Positions 3,651 to 20,221 of a stretch of DNA of 21,051 bases are shown piece after piece. The notes under the pieces were generated by a model. It was not told the origin of the DNA and did no database searches. It saw only the letters and a program-made list of their open reading frames with translations. Each line of letters starts with the position of its first letter. The stretch's first letter is position 1. Location: positions 1 through 21,051 of IMG/VR virus record IMGVR_UViG_3300025117_000246; one strand, 5' to 3'. The position numbers and the translations under genes were made by a program. The DNA comes from a virus.

Positions 3651-4157
3651 ATGAATCAAAAAAGAAAAGAATACCTAATAAAGTGGAGAATAAAAAATAA
3701 GGATAAGATGAATGCGTATCACAGAGAATATCGTAAAACTCATTGTTGGCATAAATATTATCATTATGTTAAAAAGGGACGGCGGGTGTGGTGTGAAGGA
3801 TTGAAACTTTCTATTGATCATAGAAAAAAAATATCTGATGCCAGTATGGGGGAAAAGAACCATAATTGGCAGGGAGGAATAACTGAAAAAAATAGAATTA
3901 TTAGGAAAAACATTGAATATAAATTATGGAGAGCAGATGTTCTTAAACGAGATAATTATACCTGTCAAGTATGTGATAAGAGTGGGATAAAATTAAATGC
4001 ACATCATCTCAAACCTTTTTCATTATTCCCCGAGGATAGGTTTGATATAAATAATGGTGTAACCTTATGTGTTAAATGTCATAAAAAAACAGATACATAT
4101 GGTTCAAAAGTTCTTTTATATAATCGGGGATTTAAAAATACGGCTGAGTTGCAATAA
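3651..4157 (+). CDS. HNH homing endonuclease with NUMOD3-like segment
   Basis: A 168-residue protein that probably nicks or cuts DNA at a specific site and promotes its own spread. The basic N-terminus is followed by a NUMOD3-like DNA-binding segment (about residues 53-76: LSIDHRKKISDASMG, then NHNWQGG). The HNH nuclease domain occupies about residues 85-148: a zinc pair C105/C108, the catalytic motif NAHHLKPF with H118 and H119, DINNG, and a second pair C140/C143 followed by H144. The C-terminal half closely resembles the endonuclease at 9996-10664. It has its own consensus promoter and sits after a hairpin-rich RNA region, so it may be the endonuclease of an intron or a free-standing gene. 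No alternative function is likely. Confidence 0.85.
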   Translation: MNQKRKEYLIKWRIKNKDKMNAYHREYRKTHCWHKYYHYVKKGRRVWCEGLKLSIDHRKKISDASMGEKNHNWQGGITEKNRIIRKNIEYKLWRADVLKRDNYTCQVCDKSGIKLNAHHLKPFSLFPEDRFDINNGVTLCVKCHKKTDTYGSKVLLYNRGFKNTAELQ

Positions 4158-5038: not shown

Positions 5039-5041
5039 AAT

Positions 5042-5057
5042 GGGACATTGATATACT
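5042..5057 (+). promoter_or_regulatory. Phage promoter, extended -10 type, leaderless geometry (copy 2)
   Basis: GGGACATTGATATACT has the extended -10 TG and the hexamer TATACT at 5052-5057. Six bases follow before the ATG at 5064, the same spacing as at 39-54 and 12136-12151. It is nearly identical to the copy before the portal gene. Confidence 0.65.
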
Positions 5058-5063
5058 TATGGT

Positions 5064-8000
5064 ATGGCTACAACTATAAATGACATCCCAAATCTGAATA
5101 AACAGATTTCTAGTAAAAAAGAAGAGGAAAAAACGGCTTGGGAAAAATTAAAATCTTCTCCTACCGCACTTGGTGGAGTGGGAGTGCCTACTACCTTTGA
5201 TGTTGCCAATCAATCGTCTCTTCAACGTATTCAGGGAGAAATACAGAAATTGAAGGATGATAAAATAAACGCCACATGGTATGGCCCAAAGGCTCCGGTC
5301 TCGGCCCAAGAAGAACCTGCTACACAGGGTGTCTTTGGTAAGACATTGGATTTTGCGTTGCGGCCACTTTATGGAATTGTGGGCGCTGCAAAGCATGTTG
5401 TCGGTCAAGGGACAGGTTCTCTTTATCAGGATATTGCGGACAATATGGTGCGGAATAAAAATACCTTTGGAGATGTTCTAAAGAACTCAAGTGTCCCGTG
5501 GTCAGTCGCCGCTCCATTAGGATTTGCTCTTGACATTGCTATGGATCCGGTAAATTGGGCAACCATGGGGACTAGTGCTCTTATACCTAGAATTGGTATG
5601 GGTATTTTTAAGGGGGTAAAAACTGGAGAAAATATTGCTAAAAGCGTTTCTATTGCGGCTAAGTCTGGGTTATTGGAAAAAGCCGCCACTGCGAGTAGAT
5701 TCATCCCCTTTGTTAAAAAAACCAAGGCTTTTGAAAAATTAGGAGAGACCGCTATTAAGGCAACCGATGATTGGGAAAAATTAAGCGGGATAGACGCCGC
5801 AAGTATAATCCGTAATAAAGATAAGAATTTATTGGGGGCTTTTAGAGTTGGGTTAAATACGGTTTTTGATAAGGCGGTAGAGGCAACCCCCGGAGCAAAG
5901 AATTTTTTACAAAATTTTATATATGATCCGGTGGATTGGATTCGGCAATCTCGTTATAAAGATATCGTTACTCGGTCATTGGCGCCTAAAATTGAAAACG
6001 TGAAGGGGGCTGTAATTGCATATAATAAGGGTGAATCCATTGAGCCATTTATGAAAAAAGTGGAGGAGCAGGCTAAAGCAACCCTGGCGGCTAAAAAGGT
6101 AATACCAGTTAGACTTGAAGCTGATGTAACAAAAAATCTGGTCTCCAGTGAAGAAGTAGCCAAAAAAATGGAAAGTTTAGATGCTATTAGTATGAAAGAG
6201 CGGGTTATGCAAGCATCTGATGATATGATTAAAGGGGTTGATGATGCAGAATCTGTTTTAAAGGATGTGGATGGAATTTTTGTTTCTGGGGACCCAATAG
6301 AAAATGCCAGGAGATTAGCTTCAGAAAAAGTTGGGAGTCCGATTTCCATGGATGAATTGGAGAAGATAATGACCTCTGGGGCTTTGGACCAAACTGGTGT
6401 CAAATGGTTTGATAATATGTTAAAAAGTATTCGTGATTATACTATAAGATTAGATAGAAATGGAGGAAAAGCATATGAGATTGGAAAGCAAACTATGGAT
6501 TGGTATGAGAGAGGAATGGCTATTTTTAAGGTGGCTAAGGTGGCCGCTTCCCCCTCCGCCTGGACGAACGCTATTGTAGGAAATATATTGATGACCCATA
6601 TGGCTGGAGCGAGTATTGGTCCAGGTTTTCTTAGAAGATTAACTCAATCATGGGGATTATATCGGAATAAATCTGGTAAAGCGGCATTATTTGATGATTT
6701 GTTTTTCGGAGCGGGTGGTGAAACTAAAGGGGGGGATGTGGTTCGTAGACATATGGCTGAAAATCCTACTGCATATGCGAATTTAATTGGTCGTCATGAT
6801 TATATTGGAGATCCTATTTCTGGAAAACCGGGGTTAAGGGAATATGCTGCTACTAGGCTTTCTATGTACGGTCGGGATGCTGGAATACTTGGTGGTAAAT
6901 CACTAGATTCAAAAGAGGTTGGTGATGTCTTAACGGAGGTTGCAATGCAAAGAGATTTAAAGAAGGCGGAGTTAATGAATTTAGAAATGAAAGAAAAGGA
7001 AGCGACTCTTTCAAATAAATCTGGTTTGGCTATGACTAAGGCTAAGATAAAAGAATCTTTAAGAGAGGGAGGTGGTGGGATTGAAAGTCTTTCTAGTTCT
7101 GAAATGGGTGGAGGTTTATTGGGTCAAGAATTGATAACTTCAAAAGTTAATGCGGAAATGTTTGCAAATATGGCGCAAAGGGCGAAAGATAATCCTAATA
7201 ATTTAACATATAAAGTTCTTGATTATATTTTTAATAAAATGCCCGAGGGTTATGAAAAGGTCGACCAAACTTTTAAGATGACAACATTTGTTATTGCAAC
7301 TAGAGATGGATATACAATGAATGAATTGCGACGTATATCTAAATTGGTTGATATTGACGTAGAGACCTTAAGCAAGTATTCAAATATTAAAACCGATCCT
7401 TATGCAAAAATGTTGCATGCCGCAGAATCGGATCATGAATTTACTAGTCAGGTTTTATATCGTTTATCGCCCAATAACGCTCTGGAATTGGCCAATATAA
7501 TGTACTTGAATTATGCCGCCATGCCGGCAGCGGTTAAGGTGATGAGAAATTTTCCATTATTGAGATCTCCCTTTATTTCTTTTATGTATGGTATGTCGCT
7601 AAAAACAGGTCAAACTTTAGCATATAATCCATCGGCCTTCAATAAGGTGACGTTGGCCATGAATGATTTTGGGGGAACAAAAACCGCATTAGAGAAGAAA
7701 GCGATATATGATAATTCAATAGGTCCGGATGGAAGACCGTACAATGAATTTTATAGTTATTTGCAAAAACAGGGGATGTATCGAATTCCATTTTTTGATA
7801 AAAATCCAAATTATATGAATTTGTCAAGTGCAATTCCCTATTATTCTTTGAACATATTTACCCCATCTCAAACTAATTATGGAAATTCAACTCGTGAGAA
7901 AATTGCGCAATTAATTCAATCATCTCCAGTGTTAGGGGATCCCATAGGAACTATAATATCTAATTATTTTATTATACCACTAATTCTTGGAGAAGCAATT

Positions 8001-9995: not shown

Positions 9996-10664
9996 ATGCC
10001 AAGTGGAATATATAAAAGAATTAAATCCGTTTCGCTTGAGACCAGAATGAAGATGCGGTTAAAAGCCTTGGGTAATAAATATAGTTTGGGTTTTCATCAG
10101 CTTGAAAGCACTATTCAAAAAAGACGTGAAAAACTTTTGGGAAAACCAAGGTCTATTGAAACACGTAAAAAAATAAGTGCCGGTCATATGGGGAAGGTGG
10201 TTACAATGGAAACTCGTAATAAAATGAGACTTGTTAATTTGGGTAAAAAATTATCCAGTGAAACAAAAGAAAAATTAAGAATATCTAGTACGGGTAGGCA
10301 TCATTCCATATTGTCTCGTAAAAAAATGAGTGAAATGAGGATGGGAAAAAATTCTCCAGGATGGAGGGGTGGAATATCTATTTTTAATGAAAGAATAAGG
10401 AAGAGTTTGAAATATAAAATATGGAGAGAAAGTATTTTTAATAGAGATAAGTATAAATGTACTTTGTGCCCGGTAGTTGGAGGAAAATTAAATGCTGATC
10501 ACATAAAACCATTCTCAATAATAATGAAAAAAAATAATATTTTTACATTTGAAAATGCAATGAAGTGTTTTGAATTATGGGATATTAATAATGGCAGAAC
10601 TCTTTGTTTGGATTGTCATAAAAAAACAGAAACACATGGGAATAAAAAGAAAATATATGAATAG
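9996..10664 (+). CDS. NUMOD3/HNH homing endonuclease between terS and terL
   Basis: A 222-residue protein. The N-terminal half has about five NUMOD3-like DNA-binding repeats, seen as recurring ETRxKM or KxxSxxxxG units (SLETRMKMRLKALGNKYS, SIETRKKISAGHMGK, METRNKMRLVNLGK, SSETKEKLRISSTG, LSRKKMSEMRMG). The HNH domain follows with zinc pairs C155/C158 and C204/C207-H208, and the motif NADHIKPF with H169. Compared with the 3651 enzyme it has more NUMOD3 units and a longer loop before DINNG. The stop overlaps the TerL start by eight bases (ATGAATAG). It may be a selfish free-standing endonuclease. Some phages need an HNH protein next to the terminase for packaging, but the NUMOD3 repeats favour homing. 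Confidence 0.85.
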   Translation: MPSGIYKRIKSVSLETRMKMRLKALGNKYSLGFHQLESTIQKRREKLLGKPRSIETRKKISAGHMGKVVTMETRNKMRLVNLGKKLSSETKEKLRISSTGRHHSILSRKKMSEMRMGKNSPGWRGGISIFNERIRKSLKYKIWRESIFNRDKYKCTLCPVVGGKLNADHIKPFSIIMKKNNIFTFENAMKCFELWDINNGRTLCLDCHKKTETHGNKKKIYE

Positions 10665-12111: not shown

Positions 12112-12135
12112 TTTTACAAAATTTAAAGAAAAATA

Positions 12136-12151
12136 GGGACTTTGCTATACT
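12136..12151 (+). promoter_or_regulatory. Phage promoter, extended -10 type, leaderless geometry (copy 3)
   Basis: GGGACTTTGCTATACT, with hexamer TATACT at 12146-12151 and six bases before the portal ATG at 12158. TTTAAA at 12122-12127, 18 bases upstream, could act as a weak -35. The predicted +1 is the first base of the portal gene. Confidence 0.65.
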
Positions 12152-12157
12152 TTTATC

Positions 12158-14395
12158 ATGCAAAGATACGGAAATACATATTCCCCACGTGATTTTGGGA
12201 AAAAAGAAGAAGAACTTCTTCGGCTTTTTTCAATTCAGCGTGATGACGCAAGAAATTACTTTCTTTCGGTTATTAAACCACGCCTAGATCGGTCGTATAA
12301 GCTTTATATTGCTTATGGTGGCGACAGACAACGGGAAATAAAAAAGTGGCAATCGAACGTTCAAATACCCTATATTCAGTCGGCCGTAGAAACTATGGTC
12401 CCACGTATCGTTGACGCCAGACCGGAGTTTACAGCCATGGGTCGCAATGAAGATGATCAAACTAGGGCGGAGAAGCAAGAAAAGTTGATGGATTATCACT
12501 GGGAGCGGGCAGGAATGGATTCTACAAATGAAGATTTTGTCCGGTCTGCCCTTGTTTATGGAAACGGATACTTGCAGGTGAGTTGGAAAAAGGATGTCCG
12601 GACTCTTAGATTTTTAAGAAGTAAAGATATCGCCAGCAAGAAATATGTCTGGAAGGAGGAAAAAAGAACTTTTTTTGATGGCCCAATGTGTGAGTGGGTG
12701 GATAACTATAATCTTTGGTATGATTGGCACAATACTGCTCGCAAACTCAAACAGTATTGGTTTAAACGTTTAGTTTTGCCAGAATCAGAAATTCGTCGCC
12801 GATATCCTATGGCGGATAAAAAAAGATTAGAGATGGCTCTTGCTTCTGCCGGAGGAGATTTAACTGATTATGCGGCAATTAGGCAACAAGTCAGAACTGT
12901 TCATCAATATACCACCAAATCTTCAGCAGCGGAAAACAGCACTTCTGGGGCTGATAAATATAATAATACTCAAGACGATTTATTAAAAATGTATGAGGTC
13001 TTTGAGTGGTGGAGACCGTTTGATGATGCTTATGCGGTGATTGTGGGTGGAAGTAATGTCCCGATTTTTAAAGATGGCTCCATACCAATCCCCATGGATT
13101 TCAAAGAATCTCCCTTTATTGACGCTGCTTATTTGAAAATCCCTGGTGAATTTGAGGGTTATGGCCTTCCCTTGATTTTAGAAAGTCCTCAAATTATGCT
13201 CAATTTAGTGAAAAATCAGCGGTTAGACGCCGCTACTCTTTCTATACATAAAATGTGGATTGTTAATCCATTGGCCAATGTTAACAAGGATGAACTGGTG
13301 ACTAGACCATTTGGAATTATTTATTCTATTGATCCCAATGGGGTTAGGGAAATCCAATTTAGTGATATTAAACCCTCAGCCTACAAGGAAGAAGAACTTT
13401 TAAAGGCCGATATGCAATATGCTTCCGGGGTAGATGATTTTTCTCAAGGTATTGGCAGTGGTGGAACTAGTAGTGCAACAGAGGTTCGCCATTTGCGTGA
13501 ATCCACTCTCGAGCGGGTACGCATGTTTGTTAATCATTTAGGTGATGCCTATTCTGATGTTTTTAGATATTGGATGGACTTGACACGTCAATTATTTACC
13601 GAAAAGATGACGATTCGGATTATTGGTGAAAAGGGTCAACCGGAATATCCACTTATTGAAAAAGATGATTTAATGGGTTTTTTTGATTATCGGGCCAAAG
13701 TGCTTCCGTCAATTGCCGGACAGGATGAGGTTAAAAAGAAGCAGGATATGGATCTTTATCAATTGCTTATTAATTTACCGTTTATTGATCCTCAGAAACT
13801 TACTTCTAGGGTTATTGCCGATTGGGGATGGTCATTGGATGGTGTGACAAAAGCTCAAGAAGACATTGCCGCCGGAACCCCAACTGGGCCGGATGGAATG
13901 CCATTGCCACAAATAGGACCTGATGGAAAACCAGTTGTTACATCATCAGCAGGAGCTACGCCTCCAGCAGGAGTTATGACAGCATTGCCAGCGGGAATGC
14001 CACCAGGATTAGCGGGAAGCATGCAACCAGGTTTACCAGGTGGACCAATTCCGGGGGGTGGAATGGGTGGTCCGGGTTTCCAAAGTTTAATTCCTCGTTC
14101 AGCTTTGCGCAATGTGGTTAGCCATTTAAGGCGGACAGGAGAAACTTATAATAGTGGTGGGAGTAATTATTCGCAATTTGCTAATCCGATAAATCTATTG
14201 ACTGGGGGAGGAATTCCTCCAACGGTGGCAGGAGTACCAGTGGCTGATAAGAGCAGAAGTTCCGTGATTCCTAATATCGCTGGGCATAATAGAAAAATTG
14301 GTGGAAGAGTTGACACCAATGTCCCTTCTCAAAATACTACGAGTATGCAATCGAATATTTTAAATCGGGCGTTTAGTTTGCAGGGTAAAAAATAG
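12158..14395 (+). CDS. Portal protein
   Basis: A 745-residue protein that forms the ring through which DNA enters and leaves the head. Typical portal features are the N-terminal segment with WQSNVQIPYIQSAVETMVPR, the DYHWERAGMDS region, FVRSALVYGNGYLQVSWKKD, and the later LILESPQIMLNLVKNQRLD. The gene directly follows TerL, as usual. The type resembles portals of SU10-like podoviruses and others with DUF5309 capsids. Residues of about 571-644 are low complexity (Pro, Gly, Met, Ala), unusual for a portal core and probably a flexible extension. A start at 12158 is supported by the promoter placing +1 there. Weak sequence conservation prevents naming the exact portal family. Confidence 0.88.
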   Translation: MQRYGNTYSPRDFGKKEEELLRLFSIQRDDARNYFLSVIKPRLDRSYKLYIAYGGDRQREIKKWQSNVQIPYIQSAVETMVPRIVDARPEFTAMGRNEDDQTRAEKQEKLMDYHWERAGMDSTNEDFVRSALVYGNGYLQVSWKKDVRTLRFLRSKDIASKKYVWKEEKRTFFDGPMCEWVDNYNLWYDWHNTARKLKQYWFKRLVLPESEIRRRYPMADKKRLEMALASAGGDLTDYAAIRQQVRTVHQYTTKSSAAENSTSGADKYNNTQDDLLKMYEVFEWWRPFDDAYAVIVGGSNVPIFKDGSIPIPMDFKESPFIDAAYLKIPGEFEGYGLPLILESPQIMLNLVKNQRLDAATLSIHKMWIVNPLANVNKDELVTRPFGIIYSIDPNGVREIQFSDIKPSAYKEEELLKADMQYASGVDDFSQGIGSGGTSSATEVRHLRESTLERVRMFVNHLGDAYSDVFRYWMDLTRQLFTEKMTIRIIGEKGQPEYPLIEKDDLMGFFDYRAKVLPSIAGQDEVKKKQDMDLYQLLINLPFIDPQKLTSRVIADWGWSLDGVTKAQEDIAAGTPTGPDGMPLPQIGPDGKPVVTSSAGATPPAGVMTALPAGMPPGLAGSMQPGLPGGPIPGGGMGGPGFQSLIPRSALRNVVSHLRRTGETYNSGGSNYSQFANPINLLTGGGIPPTVAGVPVADKSRSSVIPNIAGHNRKIGGRVDTNVPSQNTTSMQSNILNRAFSLQGKK

Positions 14396-16344: not shown

Positions 16345-16491
16345 ATGGCTAATTATCCTTATTACACAGAACCGACTCATGATCGCAGTACAACCGTGAT
16401 CACAGATGGCGGAGCAAGGGATACAGCTGTATCTAGCGCTGAAGGGCGTTTGATTATAGATGCGGTTGATAAAATCTTTTTGCTAGAACCT
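16345..16491 (+). CDS. Major capsid protein, exon 1
   Basis: This exon codes the first 49 residues of the capsid protein, ending ...AVDKIFLLEP. Unspliced reading would stop at TAG 16513-16515 after only 56 residues. The 5' splice site follows the T at 16491. AACCTAA at 16487-16493 pairs with TTGGGTT at 16500-16506, placing T16491 opposite G16502, the U-G pair that defines group I 5' splice sites. Joining to 17432 keeps the frame and gives LLEP-NKHPLVSLL, which fits the N-terminal arm of DUF5309/SU10-type capsid proteins. The ATG follows an A/T leader without Shine-Dalgarno site. The whole protein is 415 residues. Confidence 0.85.
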
Positions 16492-16632
16492 AAAGTTTAT
16501 TGGGTTAGTCAATAGTAATATTGAAATAATAGTAAAAGGATTTAGGATAATAAGCAAAAAAAGTAAATTGTTCTTTAAAAATTAAATAAAGTTTAGAAAT
16601 AATTTAGCTATATGCTGGAAACTCTTGCGTAC

Positions 16633-16661
16633 TTGACAAAATACAAATTTTATCCTACAAT
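16633..16661 (+). promoter_or_regulatory. Consensus sigma70-type promoter inside the intron
   Basis: TTGACA at 16633-16638 and TACAAT at 16656-16661 with a 17-base spacer. Predicted +1 is near 16668, about 33 bases before the endonuclease ATG at 16701. It overlaps P4-P5 of the intron RNA, so the same bases serve ribozyme and promoter. The leader has no strong Shine-Dalgarno sequence. Confidence 0.6.
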
Positions 16662-16700
16662 GTCAGTATAATAACTAATTCATTACCATAGTGTAAAAAT

Positions 16701-17345
16701 ATGAATTTAAAGACAATCAGCAGGCAAGATTATACATTAAATAAAGAATTGGCCTATCTATTGGGTGTTTATTTGACGGATGGATCAATCACTGAAAAGA
16801 ACTTTCAATTACAAGCTATTGATGAGGATTTTGTTACATCTACTCATAATTATCTAAAAACGATTATTCCAAAAACAAAGTCGTATGTTAGAAAAAGATA
16901 TGAGATAACCGGATGGAATAAGAATCCTAGATATGTAATTAAGGTCGGTATAGGTGATTTGGCTCCATGGTTTGAAAATATTACCAATAAAAAACATCAT
17001 TTACCATTTAATATTTGGAAAGCTAATGATGGTTTAAAACGATGGTTTATTGCAGGGATTATGGATGGTGATGGATGGATATCAAAAACTAAACGTCCAA
17101 ATAGTGAACAATATCAATATAGAATTGGTATTGGTGGTGTGATGGATGGTTGGATAGGTGAATTTCGTGAATTATTAAATAGTTTTTCTGTAAAATGCAA
17201 TAAGATAGAGCGATTACAGACAAAAGATGGAAAATGGTTTTGTAGATTTCATATTAATCCACAATCATTCTTTAATTCAAAGTTATTTTTTACAATTAAG
17301 CGTAAAAAAGAACGATGTATAATAGCCTCAACGACTACACGCTAA
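16701..17345 (+). CDS. LAGLIDADG homing endonuclease of the capsid intron
   Basis: A 214-residue enzyme that probably cuts intronless capsid genes to spread the intron. Two LAGLIDADG helices are seen: ELAYLLGVYLTDG (residues 16-28, D27) and WFIAGIMDGDG (115-125, D124). The two acidic residues are the expected metal ligands, giving a single-chain enzyme with both half-sites. Each motif is followed by a basic beta-rich region that contacts DNA. Its last codons (coding STTTR) and stop contain the 5' strand of P7 (17333-17337) and the first bases of P3 (17341-17345), so the gene cannot change there without harming the ribozyme. Maturase activity is possible for this family but no evidence is seen. 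Confidence 0.92.
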   Translation: MNLKTISRQDYTLNKELAYLLGVYLTDGSITEKNFQLQAIDEDFVTSTHNYLKTIIPKTKSYVRKRYEITGWNKNPRYVIKVGIGDLAPWFENITNKKHHLPFNIWKANDGLKRWFIAGIMDGDGWISKTKRPNSEQYQYRIGIGGVMDGWIGEFRELLNSFSVKCNKIERLQTKDGKWFCRFHINPQSFFNSKLFFTIKRKKERCIIASTTTR

Positions 17346-17431
17346 ACATCCAATTAAATTGGATGAAGATATAGTCTGACCTTCATGGAGACATGGAGAA
17401 ATGGCAAGTAAAATGCCATGATAACAAAAAG

Positions 17432-18532
17432 AATAAACATCCGTTAGTATCCCTCTTGACCAATGTTGGAAAAGTTTGGGATGGAAAGGCTTGGACAGGA
17501 TCAAGCATCATGAAAGCGGTAACAACAAATCCGGAATTTAAATGGTTTGAAGACGTCTATGGTGGTCGTTATGCAAGAGCTGCTACAGCTCAAGCGGCTT
17601 CTGCTGGAACTTGCGTCGTGACTGGAGCTGGTTCAAGTTCGGCTTATATTTTCACAATCAATGATGTTGTGAGAAATTCCCGAACAGGCGAAAACTATTT
17701 AGTAACTGCGATTGCGGGTGCGAATACAATTACTATCACTAATTCTTATGGTGATACAGCAGCTGCGACAATTGCGGCAGGCGATGGTTTATTTATCATC
17801 GGTAATGTAAATTCAGAAAATTCAGGTGCGAGAAATGTCAATACAACTCGCTCAACATCTTGCTCTAACTATACACAGATCTTCAAGACTTCTATTTCAG
17901 TTTCTGGAACAGAAAAAGCGGCTGGTCTTTATGGTGGCAAGGATCTTCCTTACCAAAGAGCGAAAAAGGGTACAGAACATGCTCTCGACATTGAAAGAGC
18001 GTTCTGGTTTGGACAAAAATTGTCAGAAACTTCTACATATGCTCGCCGAGCTACTGGAGGTGTGGATGAATTTATCACAAGTGGAAGTTCTTATGTCCAG
18101 AACCAAGGTGGTCCATTGACAGCGCCGGATCTAAATACCTTCTTAAGAGAAGGATTTACCTATGGGAATACAACAAAAGTGTTGTTTGCCGGTGGTCTAG
18201 TTCTCCAAGCGATTAATGAAATTGCCAGAGGTCAGATTGTAACCAAGACTGGAGACACTACTTATGGTGTCAAGATTTCTGAATGGCAGACTGCTTTCGG
18301 AACAATCAATATCGTGCATAATCCTTTGTTTGTAGAAGATTTCGCAGGTTGCGCCTATCTTCTAGACATGGAATGCTTCCGATACAGATATATGGATGGT
18401 AGAGACACAAAACTTGAATTAAACATTCAAGCCAATGATGTAGACGGTGAAATCGACCAATACATCACAGAAGCTGGTCTAGAACGCAAACAAGCTCCGA
18501 GACACGCTTTGCTGAAAGGTGTAACTGCCTAG
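17432..18532 (+). CDS. Major capsid protein, exon 2 (DUF5309/SU10-like HK97 fold)
   Basis: This exon codes residues 50-415 of the major capsid protein and begins NKHPLVSLLTN. The ATG at 17393 is in frame but lies inside the intron and should not be used as start. Marks of the DUF5309 family are PEFKWFEDVYG, the segment NDVVRNSRTGENYLVTAIAG with GDGLFIIGNVNSENSGA, RAKKGTEHALDIERAFWFG and a C-terminal part with INIVHNPLF and FRYRYMDGRDTKLEL. The first gene downstream is preceded by a structured leader at 18541. The exon has slightly higher G+C than the intron and endonuclease, consistent with an invading intron. Confidence 0.9.
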   Translation, partial: NKHPLVSLLTNVGKVWDGKAWTGSSIMKAVTTNPEFKWFEDVYGGRYARAATAQAASAGTCVVTGAGSSSAYIFTINDVVRNSRTGENYLVTAIAGANTITITNSYGDTAAATIAAGDGLFIIGNVNSENSGARNVNTTRSTSCSNYTQIFKTSISVSGTEKAAGLYGGKDLPYQRAKKGTEHALDIERAFWFGQKLSETSTYARRATGGVDEFITSGSSYVQNQGGPLTAPDLNTFLREGFTYGNTTKVLFAGGLVLQAINEIARGQIVTKTGDTTYGVKISEWQTAFGTINIVHNPLFVEDFAGCAYLLDMECFRYRYMDGRDTKLELNIQANDVDGEIDQYITEAGLERKQAPRHALLKGVTA

Positions 18533-18540
18533 TTTAGTTT

Positions 18541-18667
18541 TCCATTCTAGTTTGGGTGGATAGTCCTACGCTCCCCTGGGACAATAAATCAGGGGAGCCC
18601 CCTCTTTGGGGCCCGACATAGTCACGGGTGATTGACTTCTTAATTAACAAACTTAAATTACAAAAAT
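18541..18667 (+). ncRNA. Structured mRNA leader, copy 1
   Basis: Four stems can be drawn: P1 18541-18545/18556-18560, P2 18570-18577/18591-18598 (8 bp), P3 18599-18602/18608-18611, P4 18612-18615/18625-18628. The P1 loop is TCTAGTTTGG; the P2 loop is GGGACAATAAATC. GTCC at 18563-18566 can pair with GGAC of the P2 loop (18579-18582), suggesting a pseudoknot. Copy 2 has the same plan with compensatory changes. A conserved unpaired A/T tail then leads to the ATG at 18668. No T tract follows P2, so it is not a simple terminator. No known riboswitch or ribozyme class was recognised. Confidence 0.8.
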
Positions 18668-19378
18668 ATGGCTTCAGTAGATTCATTAAAAGTTCGTTCA
18701 CTTTTGGCCAAGGGGGTTGTTAGACAAGTCCTTTTAGACAATGCTATTGGTTTACGACTAAGATATATTGGGACAAGCACTGTAACTACAGTTGCGATTG
18801 TCCAAGCCGACAGTCTTATTCTTACGACTGCCGCCGTCACAGATACATTTTTATTTGATGGCGCAGGTAGTTATTCCACATTAGGAGCTCTTTCGGATGC
18901 GATTAATGCAACAGGAAGATGGGAATCAGTAGTTATGGATGCGCTTCGCAGTGAAGATCCGGATGATTTCTTTGTGGCAAGTGCAGACTTAGCGTCTACA
19001 AAAGATGAAAATGACGTAGTTTGTTATGACTTAAAAATAGATACAAGCGCTGCTGCTACAATGGCAGTTTGCTTATCTCCGTTAAGTCCTAACTTTGATA
19101 TGCCGGAAGGGCACAGAGTTCATTTGAAACAAATAGATTACAGTGTAGATAATACAGAAGCGGCTGCTACATTGAAAATTTACAAGAGAAATGGAACAAT
19201 CGAAACGTTGATTTATTCTGCCACCAATGTTGGTGATGGAACAGCGACTTCAGTCACATTTGCTTCCGGTAATGCTAAAATTACAGGTGGTGTTGATGAA
19301 GAGTTGATTGTATTCTTTGATGGTACCGTAGCCGATGCAGCGACTGTCTATGTGAGAGTTATCGGATTATATGAATAA
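18668..19378 (+). CDS. Putative capsid accessory (decoration-like) protein, copy 1
   Basis: A 236-residue protein with beta-rich composition (many Thr, Val, Ala) and few charged clusters. The N-terminal part (SLLAKGVVRQVLLDNAIGLR) and the segments ALRSEDPDDFF, FDMPEGHRVHLKQIDY, ATLKIYKRNGT and GGVDEELIVFFDGT are shared with the next gene. No enzyme motif was found. Location just after the major capsid gene, the duplication and the beta-rich character suggest an outer head or head-fibre protein, inferred only from context. The leader at 18541-18667 probably controls translation. Starts with ATGGCTTC like its paralogue. Confidence 0.65.
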   Translation: MASVDSLKVRSLLAKGVVRQVLLDNAIGLRLRYIGTSTVTTVAIVQADSLILTTAAVTDTFLFDGAGSYSTLGALSDAINATGRWESVVMDALRSEDPDDFFVASADLASTKDENDVVCYDLKIDTSAAATMAVCLSPLSPNFDMPEGHRVHLKQIDYSVDNTEAAATLKIYKRNGTIETLIYSATNVGDGTATSVTFASGNAKITGGVDEELIVFFDGTVADAATVYVRVIGLYE

Positions 19379-19387
19379 TTTTTAATT

Positions 19388-19513
19388 GGCATTCTAGTTT
19401 GGATGCCTAGTCCTACACTTTTTTGGGACGATAAATCAAAAAAGTCTCCGCAAGGAGCCCGATAGAGTCACGGGTGATTGACTTCTTAATTAACAAACTT
19501 AAATTACAAAAAT
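19388..19513 (+). ncRNA. Structured mRNA leader, copy 2
   Basis: The same four stems as copy 1: P1 19388-19392/19403-19407 (GGCAT/ATGCC), P2 19417-19424/19438-19445 (ACTTTTTT/AAAAAAGT), P3 19446-19449/19454-19457 (CTCC/GGAG, closed by the GNRA loop GCAA), P4 19458-19461/19471-19474 (CCCG/CGGG). The P1 loop and the nine-base P1-P2 linker are identical to copy 1; the P2 loop differs at one base. GTCC 19410-19413 can again pair with GGAC in the loop (19426-19429). The P2 stem is G/C-rich in copy 1 and A/T-rich here, yet pairing is kept. Confidence 0.8.
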
Positions 19514-20221
19514 ATGGCTTCACGAGATTCTTTAGAGGTTAAAAGTTTACTGGCAAAGGGCGTTGTCAGACGGGTTTTGATAGACGAGGCAATTGGTTTG
19601 CGCCTTAGATATGTTGGTACGGGGACAGTAACTACAGTTGCTGTGACTCAAGCCACAAATGTTGTTCTTACAACATCTGATGGTGGTATAGATACATATG
19701 ATTTTGACACAGCGTCAAACGCCACTTTGGGCGGACTTTGTGACAATATCAATGCTGATGGTATTTTTGAAGCGGTTGTTGTGGATGCGCTTAGAAGCGA
19801 AGATCCAGATGATTTCTTTATTACAAATGCCAATACAACTGTCGGATCAGACGAAAATGGCGTAGCTTGTTACGATTTATTGGTGGATACGGATGTAGCC
19901 CTAACAATGGCTGCTTGTTTATCTCCTTTAAAACCAAACTTCGATATGCCAAGTGGGCATAGAGTTCACCTGCAGCAAATTGATTATATGATCAATAATA
20001 CTGCTGCCGCCGCTACTCTTAAAATTTACAAGAGAAAAGATGCGACTGAAACCTTAATTTATTCCGCCACAAACACTGATAATTCTGCCACATCCTTAAG
20101 CTGGGCTTCTGGAGAAGGTAAAATTACAGCTGGAGTAGATGAGGAATTAGTTGTCTTCTTTGATGGCACATTGGTAACTGCCACTGGTGGGAAGATTCAA
20201 TTGATCGGTATCTACGAATAG
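19514..20221 (+). CDS. Putative capsid accessory (decoration-like) protein, copy 2
   Basis: A 235-residue paralogue of the protein at 18668, alignable along its full length. Best conserved are SLLAKGVVR, AIGLRLRY, ALRSEDPDDFF, LSPL-PNFDMP, GHRVHLQQIDY, ATLKIYKRK, and GVDEELVVFFDGT; loops differ, mainly around residues 48-65 and 165-215. Two copies with the same leader could supply alternative or heteromeric surface proteins. There is no frameshift or loss in either copy. Function is inferred from position and fold-like composition only. Confidence 0.65.
   Translation: MASRDSLEVKSLLAKGVVRRVLIDEAIGLRLRYVGTGTVTTVAVTQATNVVLTTSDGGIDTYDFDTASNATLGGLCDNINADGIFEAVVVDALRSEDPDDFFITNANTTVGSDENGVACYDLLVDTDVALTMAACLSPLKPNFDMPSGHRVHLQQIDYMINNTAAAATLKIYKRKDATETLIYSATNTDNSATSLSWASGEGKITAGVDEELVVFFDGTLVTATGGKIQLIGIYE

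Follow-up and report, generated by a model that had tools for sequence, protein, structure and literature searches.

What kind of element stands in front of two neighbouring, related genes in the head region of a virus, and what could it do for them? The window, i.e. the whole stretch of 21,051 nucleotides analysed here, is a 21 kb virus record with genes for terminase, portal and an SU10-type major capsid protein. Genes A and B each have their own leader directly 5' of the coding sequence. The major capsid gene, which is neither A nor B, lies just upstream of gene A and has no such leader. The features of this region are as follows.

18541..18560, + strand: leader A, P1, an optional hairpin (18541-18547 with 18554-18560) whose stems vary in relatives
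18563..18598, + strand: leader A, PK1, with S1 18563-18566/18579-18582, S2 (P2) 18570-18578/18590-18598 and A-rich L3 18583-18589; covariation
18599..18611, + strand: leader A, P3 hairpin (CCCC/GGGG), longer or branched in some relatives
18612..18637, + strand: leader A, PK2, with S1 18612-18615/18625-18628, S2 18620-18624/18633-18637 and L3 UGAU 18629-18632
18638..18667, + strand: AU-rich spacer from leader A to the gene A start codon, no Shine-Dalgarno site
18668..19378, + strand: gene A, virion-like beta-sandwich protein of 236 aa
19388..19407, + strand: leader B, P1 hairpin (19388-19394 with 19401-19407)
19410..19445, + strand: leader B, PK1, with S1 19410-19413/19426-19429, S2 (P2) 19417-19425/19437-19445 and L3 19430-19436; covariation
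19446..19457, + strand: leader B, P3 hairpin (CTCC/GGAG); covariation
19458..19483, + strand: leader B, PK2, with S1 19458-19461/19471-19474, S2 19466-19470/19479-19483 and L3 19475-19478
19484..19513, + strand: AU-rich spacer from leader B to gene B, identical to the leader A spacer
19514..20221, + strand: gene B, paralog of gene A with 235 aa and 65% identity

One and the same RNA element is present twice, as the leaders at 18541 and 19388. Stems, loops and linkers lie in both copies where the initial annotation had placed them: P1 is TCCATTC/GGGTGGA in leader A and GGCATTC/GGATGCC in leader B, P2 is GCTCCCCTG/CAGGGGAGC and ACTTTTTTG/CAAAAAAGT, respectively, and P3 is CCCC/GGGG in the former and CTCC/GGAG in the latter. 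The proposed pairing of GTCC in the linker with GGAC in the P2 loop is real in both copies and can be refined, as it forms S1 of an H-type pseudoknot, PK1, in which P2 is S2. The stems of the proposed four-stem plan exist as well, but the fourth of them, CCCG/CGGG, turned out to be S1 of a second pseudoknot, PK2, whose S2, AGTCA/TGACT, had been missed. As judged from sequence comparison, the leader almost certainly consists of two H-type pseudoknots that follow one another and are separated by a hairpin, with an optional further hairpin at the 5' side. Single leaders fold only modestly better than shuffled sequences (z -2.2 and -2.3), so that relatives were needed for proof.

A single A-type protein query found only copies of the same virus, and an alignment of 30 A proteins was too diverse as a scan seed, so the capsid protein was used instead. 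This search yielded 80 viral loci, more when an alignment was used, and two further loci in species-representative bacterial genomes. In about 30 related phages, all uncultured and with capsids of the SU10 type, the capsid gene is closely followed by an A-family gene, and the intergenic sequences of the relatives share a common plan of optional P1, PK1, P3, PK2, AU-rich spacer and AUG. S1 of PK1, GTCC/GGAC in the window, is replaced elsewhere by AUCC/GGAU, CUCC/GGAG, UUCG/CGAA, AGUCU/AGACU and others, while L1 of this pseudoknot is short and L3 is A-rich, typically AUAAAU. For PK2, S1 is mostly CCCG/CGGG with a few cases of CCCA/UGGG or CCCC/GGGG, S2 (AGUCA/UGACU in the window) covaries, and L3 reads UNAU. 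Conserved unpaired bases comprise an invariant A after S1a and the U and A of PK2 L3. The initial annotation had named loss of pairing in P1 to P3 of homologous leaders as an observation that would speak against it. P2 and P3 are kept, but P1 is optional: it is strong in about half of the leaders, with sequences that differ among those.

For the analysis of covariation, 28 leaders were aligned with MAFFT on sequence only, without structure, and then scored against the named structure. Paired cells amounted to 94.3% compared to 66.0 ± 1.0% in shuffled alignments, and when partners were slid by 1-3 columns only 37.6-52.5% of cells could pair. Two-sided changes were found in 27 of 29 pairs, and the covariation score was 0.695 versus 0.194 for shuffles. 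Furthermore, we used a custom phylogeny-preserving null in which the tree and the substitution counts of each column are retained. Pairs of P2, P3, PK1-S1 (columns 3-25) and PK2-S2 exceeded this null; outside the structure, no pair did better than E = 0.8. Only a few changes support PK2-S1, since most of this helix is invariant. Among non-Watson-Crick cells, G-U (68) far outnumbered A-C (13), an excess which indicates that selection acts on the + strand RNA, i.e. the mRNA strand. Selection on RNA structure and covariation beyond phylogeny, the former previously read from two copies, are thereby confirmed: evolution has kept the shape of this RNA although nearly every stem base has changed.

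A covariance model, R1, was built without the two crossing S1 helices. It scored 72.9 bits at 18562-18638 for leader A, which had contributed to the model. The search with such a model that the initial annotation had suggested was run over 871 kb and gave matches directly upstream of the A-family gene in 35 of 37 distinct copies, with no other convincing match; the alignment behind R1 already contained most of these leaders, and the silence elsewhere is the informative part. Both exceptions (L017 7868 and L018 7987) are second paralogs directly 3' of leader-bearing copies that lost the leader or never had it, and they constitute a natural test of its contribution. One or two sites per record were found in 16 virus records, six of which are 86-101 kb long, and in two metagenome-assembled genomes (MAGs), with the second entry in two of these cases being no separate site but a split or weak part of the first. 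The leader has been duplicated along with the gene in the window, L028, L035 and L124. L038, which has a related capsid gene and no A gene in the available stretch, has no leader. When 2.9 million viral contigs were scanned with two DNA patterns, which are independent of any protein, the only new contigs positive with the model were L187 and L201, in both of which an A-family gene comes after the leader. Most matches of the PK2 pattern in viral contigs were unrelated sequence with low model scores, and the PK1-pattern scan of the 2.9 million contigs gave five further contigs, none of them convincing. The phage records searched contained neither a DNA match to the leader nor a protein match to A. 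Judged by its placement, the leader goes with gene A and not with the capsid gene.

In agreement with the initial annotation, which knew of no family with this plan, an Rfam 15 covariance scan of the window returned nothing at or above the gathering cut-off. At E values up to 5, it gave only a chance-level match to a lncRNA on the opposite strand. No description of such an element was found in the open-access subset of the literature. The element is an uncatalogued RNA family of a known general kind, comparable to the leader of T4 gene 32, with an unusual architecture of two successive H-type pseudoknots, and it is reserved for a single virion gene. The T7 gene 10 leader likewise places structured RNA and an A/U-rich stretch before an abundant virion gene; however, it has an RNase III stem-loop and a Shine-Dalgarno site and no pseudoknots. 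The Mu-gpT-DE RNA motif is a structured RNA that adjoins a phage major capsid gene, but the capsid family is a different one, the motif is tied to the downstream side of the gene, and it had no match here in the Rfam scan. The operator of T4 gene 32 comes closest in layout, with a leader pseudoknot followed by an unstructured AU-rich stretch that extends to the AUG and with a homing-endonuclease gene adjoining (PMC535899). The phage 5' leader pseudoknot and the AU-rich start region are shared, in our case as deduced from sequence and covariation. In contrast, the T4 operator has one pseudoknot and a Shine-Dalgarno site, whereas the present leader has two pseudoknots plus a hairpin and no Shine-Dalgarno site, and the target there is an RNA-binding (single-strand-binding) repressor instead of an acidic virion-like protein. 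The intergenic IRES of dicistroviruses (type I/II) is also a multi-pseudoknot RNA before a virion-protein coding sequence, but it belongs to a eukaryotic RNA virus and shows no homology. Moreover, its tRNA-mimicking pseudoknot I is positioned at the start codon within the ribosome, whereas here a spacer intervenes.

This spacer places the 3' end of the element 16-43 nt before the AUG, with one exception of 67 nt (L041) that has an extra hairpin. The spacer is 65-100% AU and mostly unpaired, with no structure reaching the AUG. By eye, an extra small hairpin re-shortens the free spacer in several relatives in which the spacer is longer (L029, L036, L041, L124). The reported lack of Shine-Dalgarno sites holds for these phages in general, as 3 of 300 genes carry the signal compared to 2.95 expected by chance. 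We noticed no alternative pairing that would reach the start codon and no T-run terminator on the + strand of the leader. A gp32-like UUAA repeat was enriched in the spacer (49 versus 24.6 expected). However, other genes of these phages likewise have an excess of TTAA ahead of them (219 versus 160), and the repeat was rejected as a leader-specific signal for this reason.

The A proteins have no match in Pfam or PHROG, and Foldseek gave only weak matches. In the AlphaFold model of A (mean pLDDT 86), an inserted domain of residues 26-131 resembles a neck/baseplate protein of phage 812 (Z 10.2, 93 residues), and the outer sandwich resembles the turret of HFTV1 (Z 8.4, 99 residues). Based on these turret- and neck-like matches of the predicted fold, the gene A product is likely a virion surface or decoration protein. 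The A proteins are acidic, with pI values of 4.1-5.3.

What the leader does can be stated less firmly than what it is, and this also applies to the role suggested initially, in setting the translation of abundant head proteins. Tentatively, we read it as a constitutive cis-acting element of the 5'-UTR that would isolate and present the start site of gene A and may protect the mRNA. It would fold directly behind ribosomes terminating on the capsid gene and shield the A start site from upstream sequence, leaving free an unstructured AU-rich landing site for ribosomes and placing PK2 close to the border of the 30S footprint. With its start site walled off and a landing site provided, gene A could gain its own initiation rate independent of a Shine-Dalgarno site; protection of the mRNA from nucleases would probably contribute. 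Comparison establishes the structure, from which we infer the function, and both contact with the 30S subunit and the activating direction are presumed. Covariation in all five helices, the strand bias, the linkage to gene A and the lack of structure at the AUG are consistent with this role. However, such a leader is missing from the capsid gene and from other genes without a Shine-Dalgarno site in these phages, so that it is not generally required for initiation. H-type pseudoknots occur in several riboswitches and small ribozymes, and the conserved L3 bases would also suit such a function, but a virion gene is the sole target, few unpaired bases are invariant, no expression platform lies near the AUG, and Rfam gave no match at either threshold. 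A riboswitch or self-cleaving ribozyme is very improbable on these grounds. The chance that the element is a DNA-level feature (promoter, terminator, packaging or recombination site) or a set of chance inverted repeats appears negligible. A promoter-like TTGACT-16-TAAATT is present in both leaders, but its -35 hexamer lies within S2 and varies along with that stem in relatives, for which reason a promoter was rejected; moreover, crossing helices with compensatory changes and the strand-specific excess of G-U over A-C speak against any such feature.

Alternatively, the tandem pseudoknots could stop exonucleases after intergenic cleavage and in this way set relative message amounts, either as a 5' block for the A mRNA or as a 3' block for the capsid mRNA. 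A compact, knotted intergenic structure that a spacer keeps apart from the start codon would fit this role in mRNA processing or stability, and in an unrelated test in bacteria, mRNA levels fell upon disruption of a pseudoknot (PMC9458429). However, the processing site is putative, and the element tracks gene A rather than the 3' end of the capsid gene, so that a function solely as a 3' block of the capsid mRNA is unlikely; overall, we regard a stability element as somewhat unlikely. The same study reported that the intergenic IRES of dicistroviruses is active in E. coli without need of its pseudoknots, which are dispensable for ribosome recruitment (PMC9458429). Together with the effect on mRNA level, this calls for caution in reading the leader as a natural, structure-dependent IRES-like element whose tandem pseudoknots directly recruit or position the 30S subunit at an internal start, in hosts that may be Patescibacteria-like. 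The start of gene A does lack a Shine-Dalgarno site, as such an element would have it, but we consider direct recruitment quite doubtful. By analogy to T4 gp32, which acts on its own leader, a phage protein might bind the pseudoknots and repress or activate gene A. The layout resembles the gene 32 operator in its 5' pseudoknot and AU-rich unstructured start region (PMC535899), and the conserved unpaired bases could be contacts. These bases would equally be needed for minor-groove triples within pseudoknots, though, and the acidic, virion-like A product makes autoregulation by A unlikely; a translational operator is on the whole rather improbable. Whichever way it acts, the leader offers a handle on how phages lacking Shine-Dalgarno sites set the expression of individual cistrons in a head operon. 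Structure-function tests are made easy by the small size of the element and by the many variants and the losses that occur in nature. Deposition of the covariance model would allow metagenomes to be searched for the gene family.

In some relatives, endonuclease genes lie next to or inside the leader. In L012, an HNH-type gene lies between the capsid gene and the leader, which still adjoins A, and the sequence before the leader indicates the same arrangement in L014 and L020. The L012 gene (7164-7860) is flanked by an inverted repeat of roughly 24 bp; the sequence of its 3' end recurs ahead of the leader in L014 and L020. In L044, PK1 itself is interrupted, with an HNH-type gene (6590-7190) separating L3 from the 3' strand of P2 and an inverted repeat of about 18 bp at the ends of the insert. 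By eye, about seven pairs are still possible with the displaced P2 strand, which is consistent with, though no proof of, a pseudoknot that tolerates the insert.

Both MAGs with relatives are under 1 Mb and lack uL30, which is found in 13 of 14 controls. In the MAG that holds L168, the 16S rRNA gene (L169) contains a repetitive insertion of roughly 290 nt and covers about 1.8 kb, and the anti-Shine-Dalgarno sequence is intact. These traits agree with Patescibacteria, but the binning of viral contigs is unreliable as host evidence.

Within the window, TTTGNTATA-like -10 sequences stand directly 5' of several start codons (36-61, 5039-5064, 12133-12158), which suggests that some transcripts may be leaderless. 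The SU10-type capsid gene is split into exon 1, which starts at 16345 and ends near LLEP, and exon 2, which starts near 17441. The split (16345-17440) is probably due to an intron, although no Rfam intron family matched at or above the cut-off. A LAGLIDADG reading frame (16701-17345) lies between the exons, and just before this homing endonuclease gene, in the putative intron, there is a near-consensus sigma-70 promoter (TTGACA-17-TACAAT, 16633-16661). Further HNH-type reading frames occur at 3651-4157, which matches Pfam HNH, and at 9996-10664, which is similar in look; homing appears to have a hot spot in the head region.
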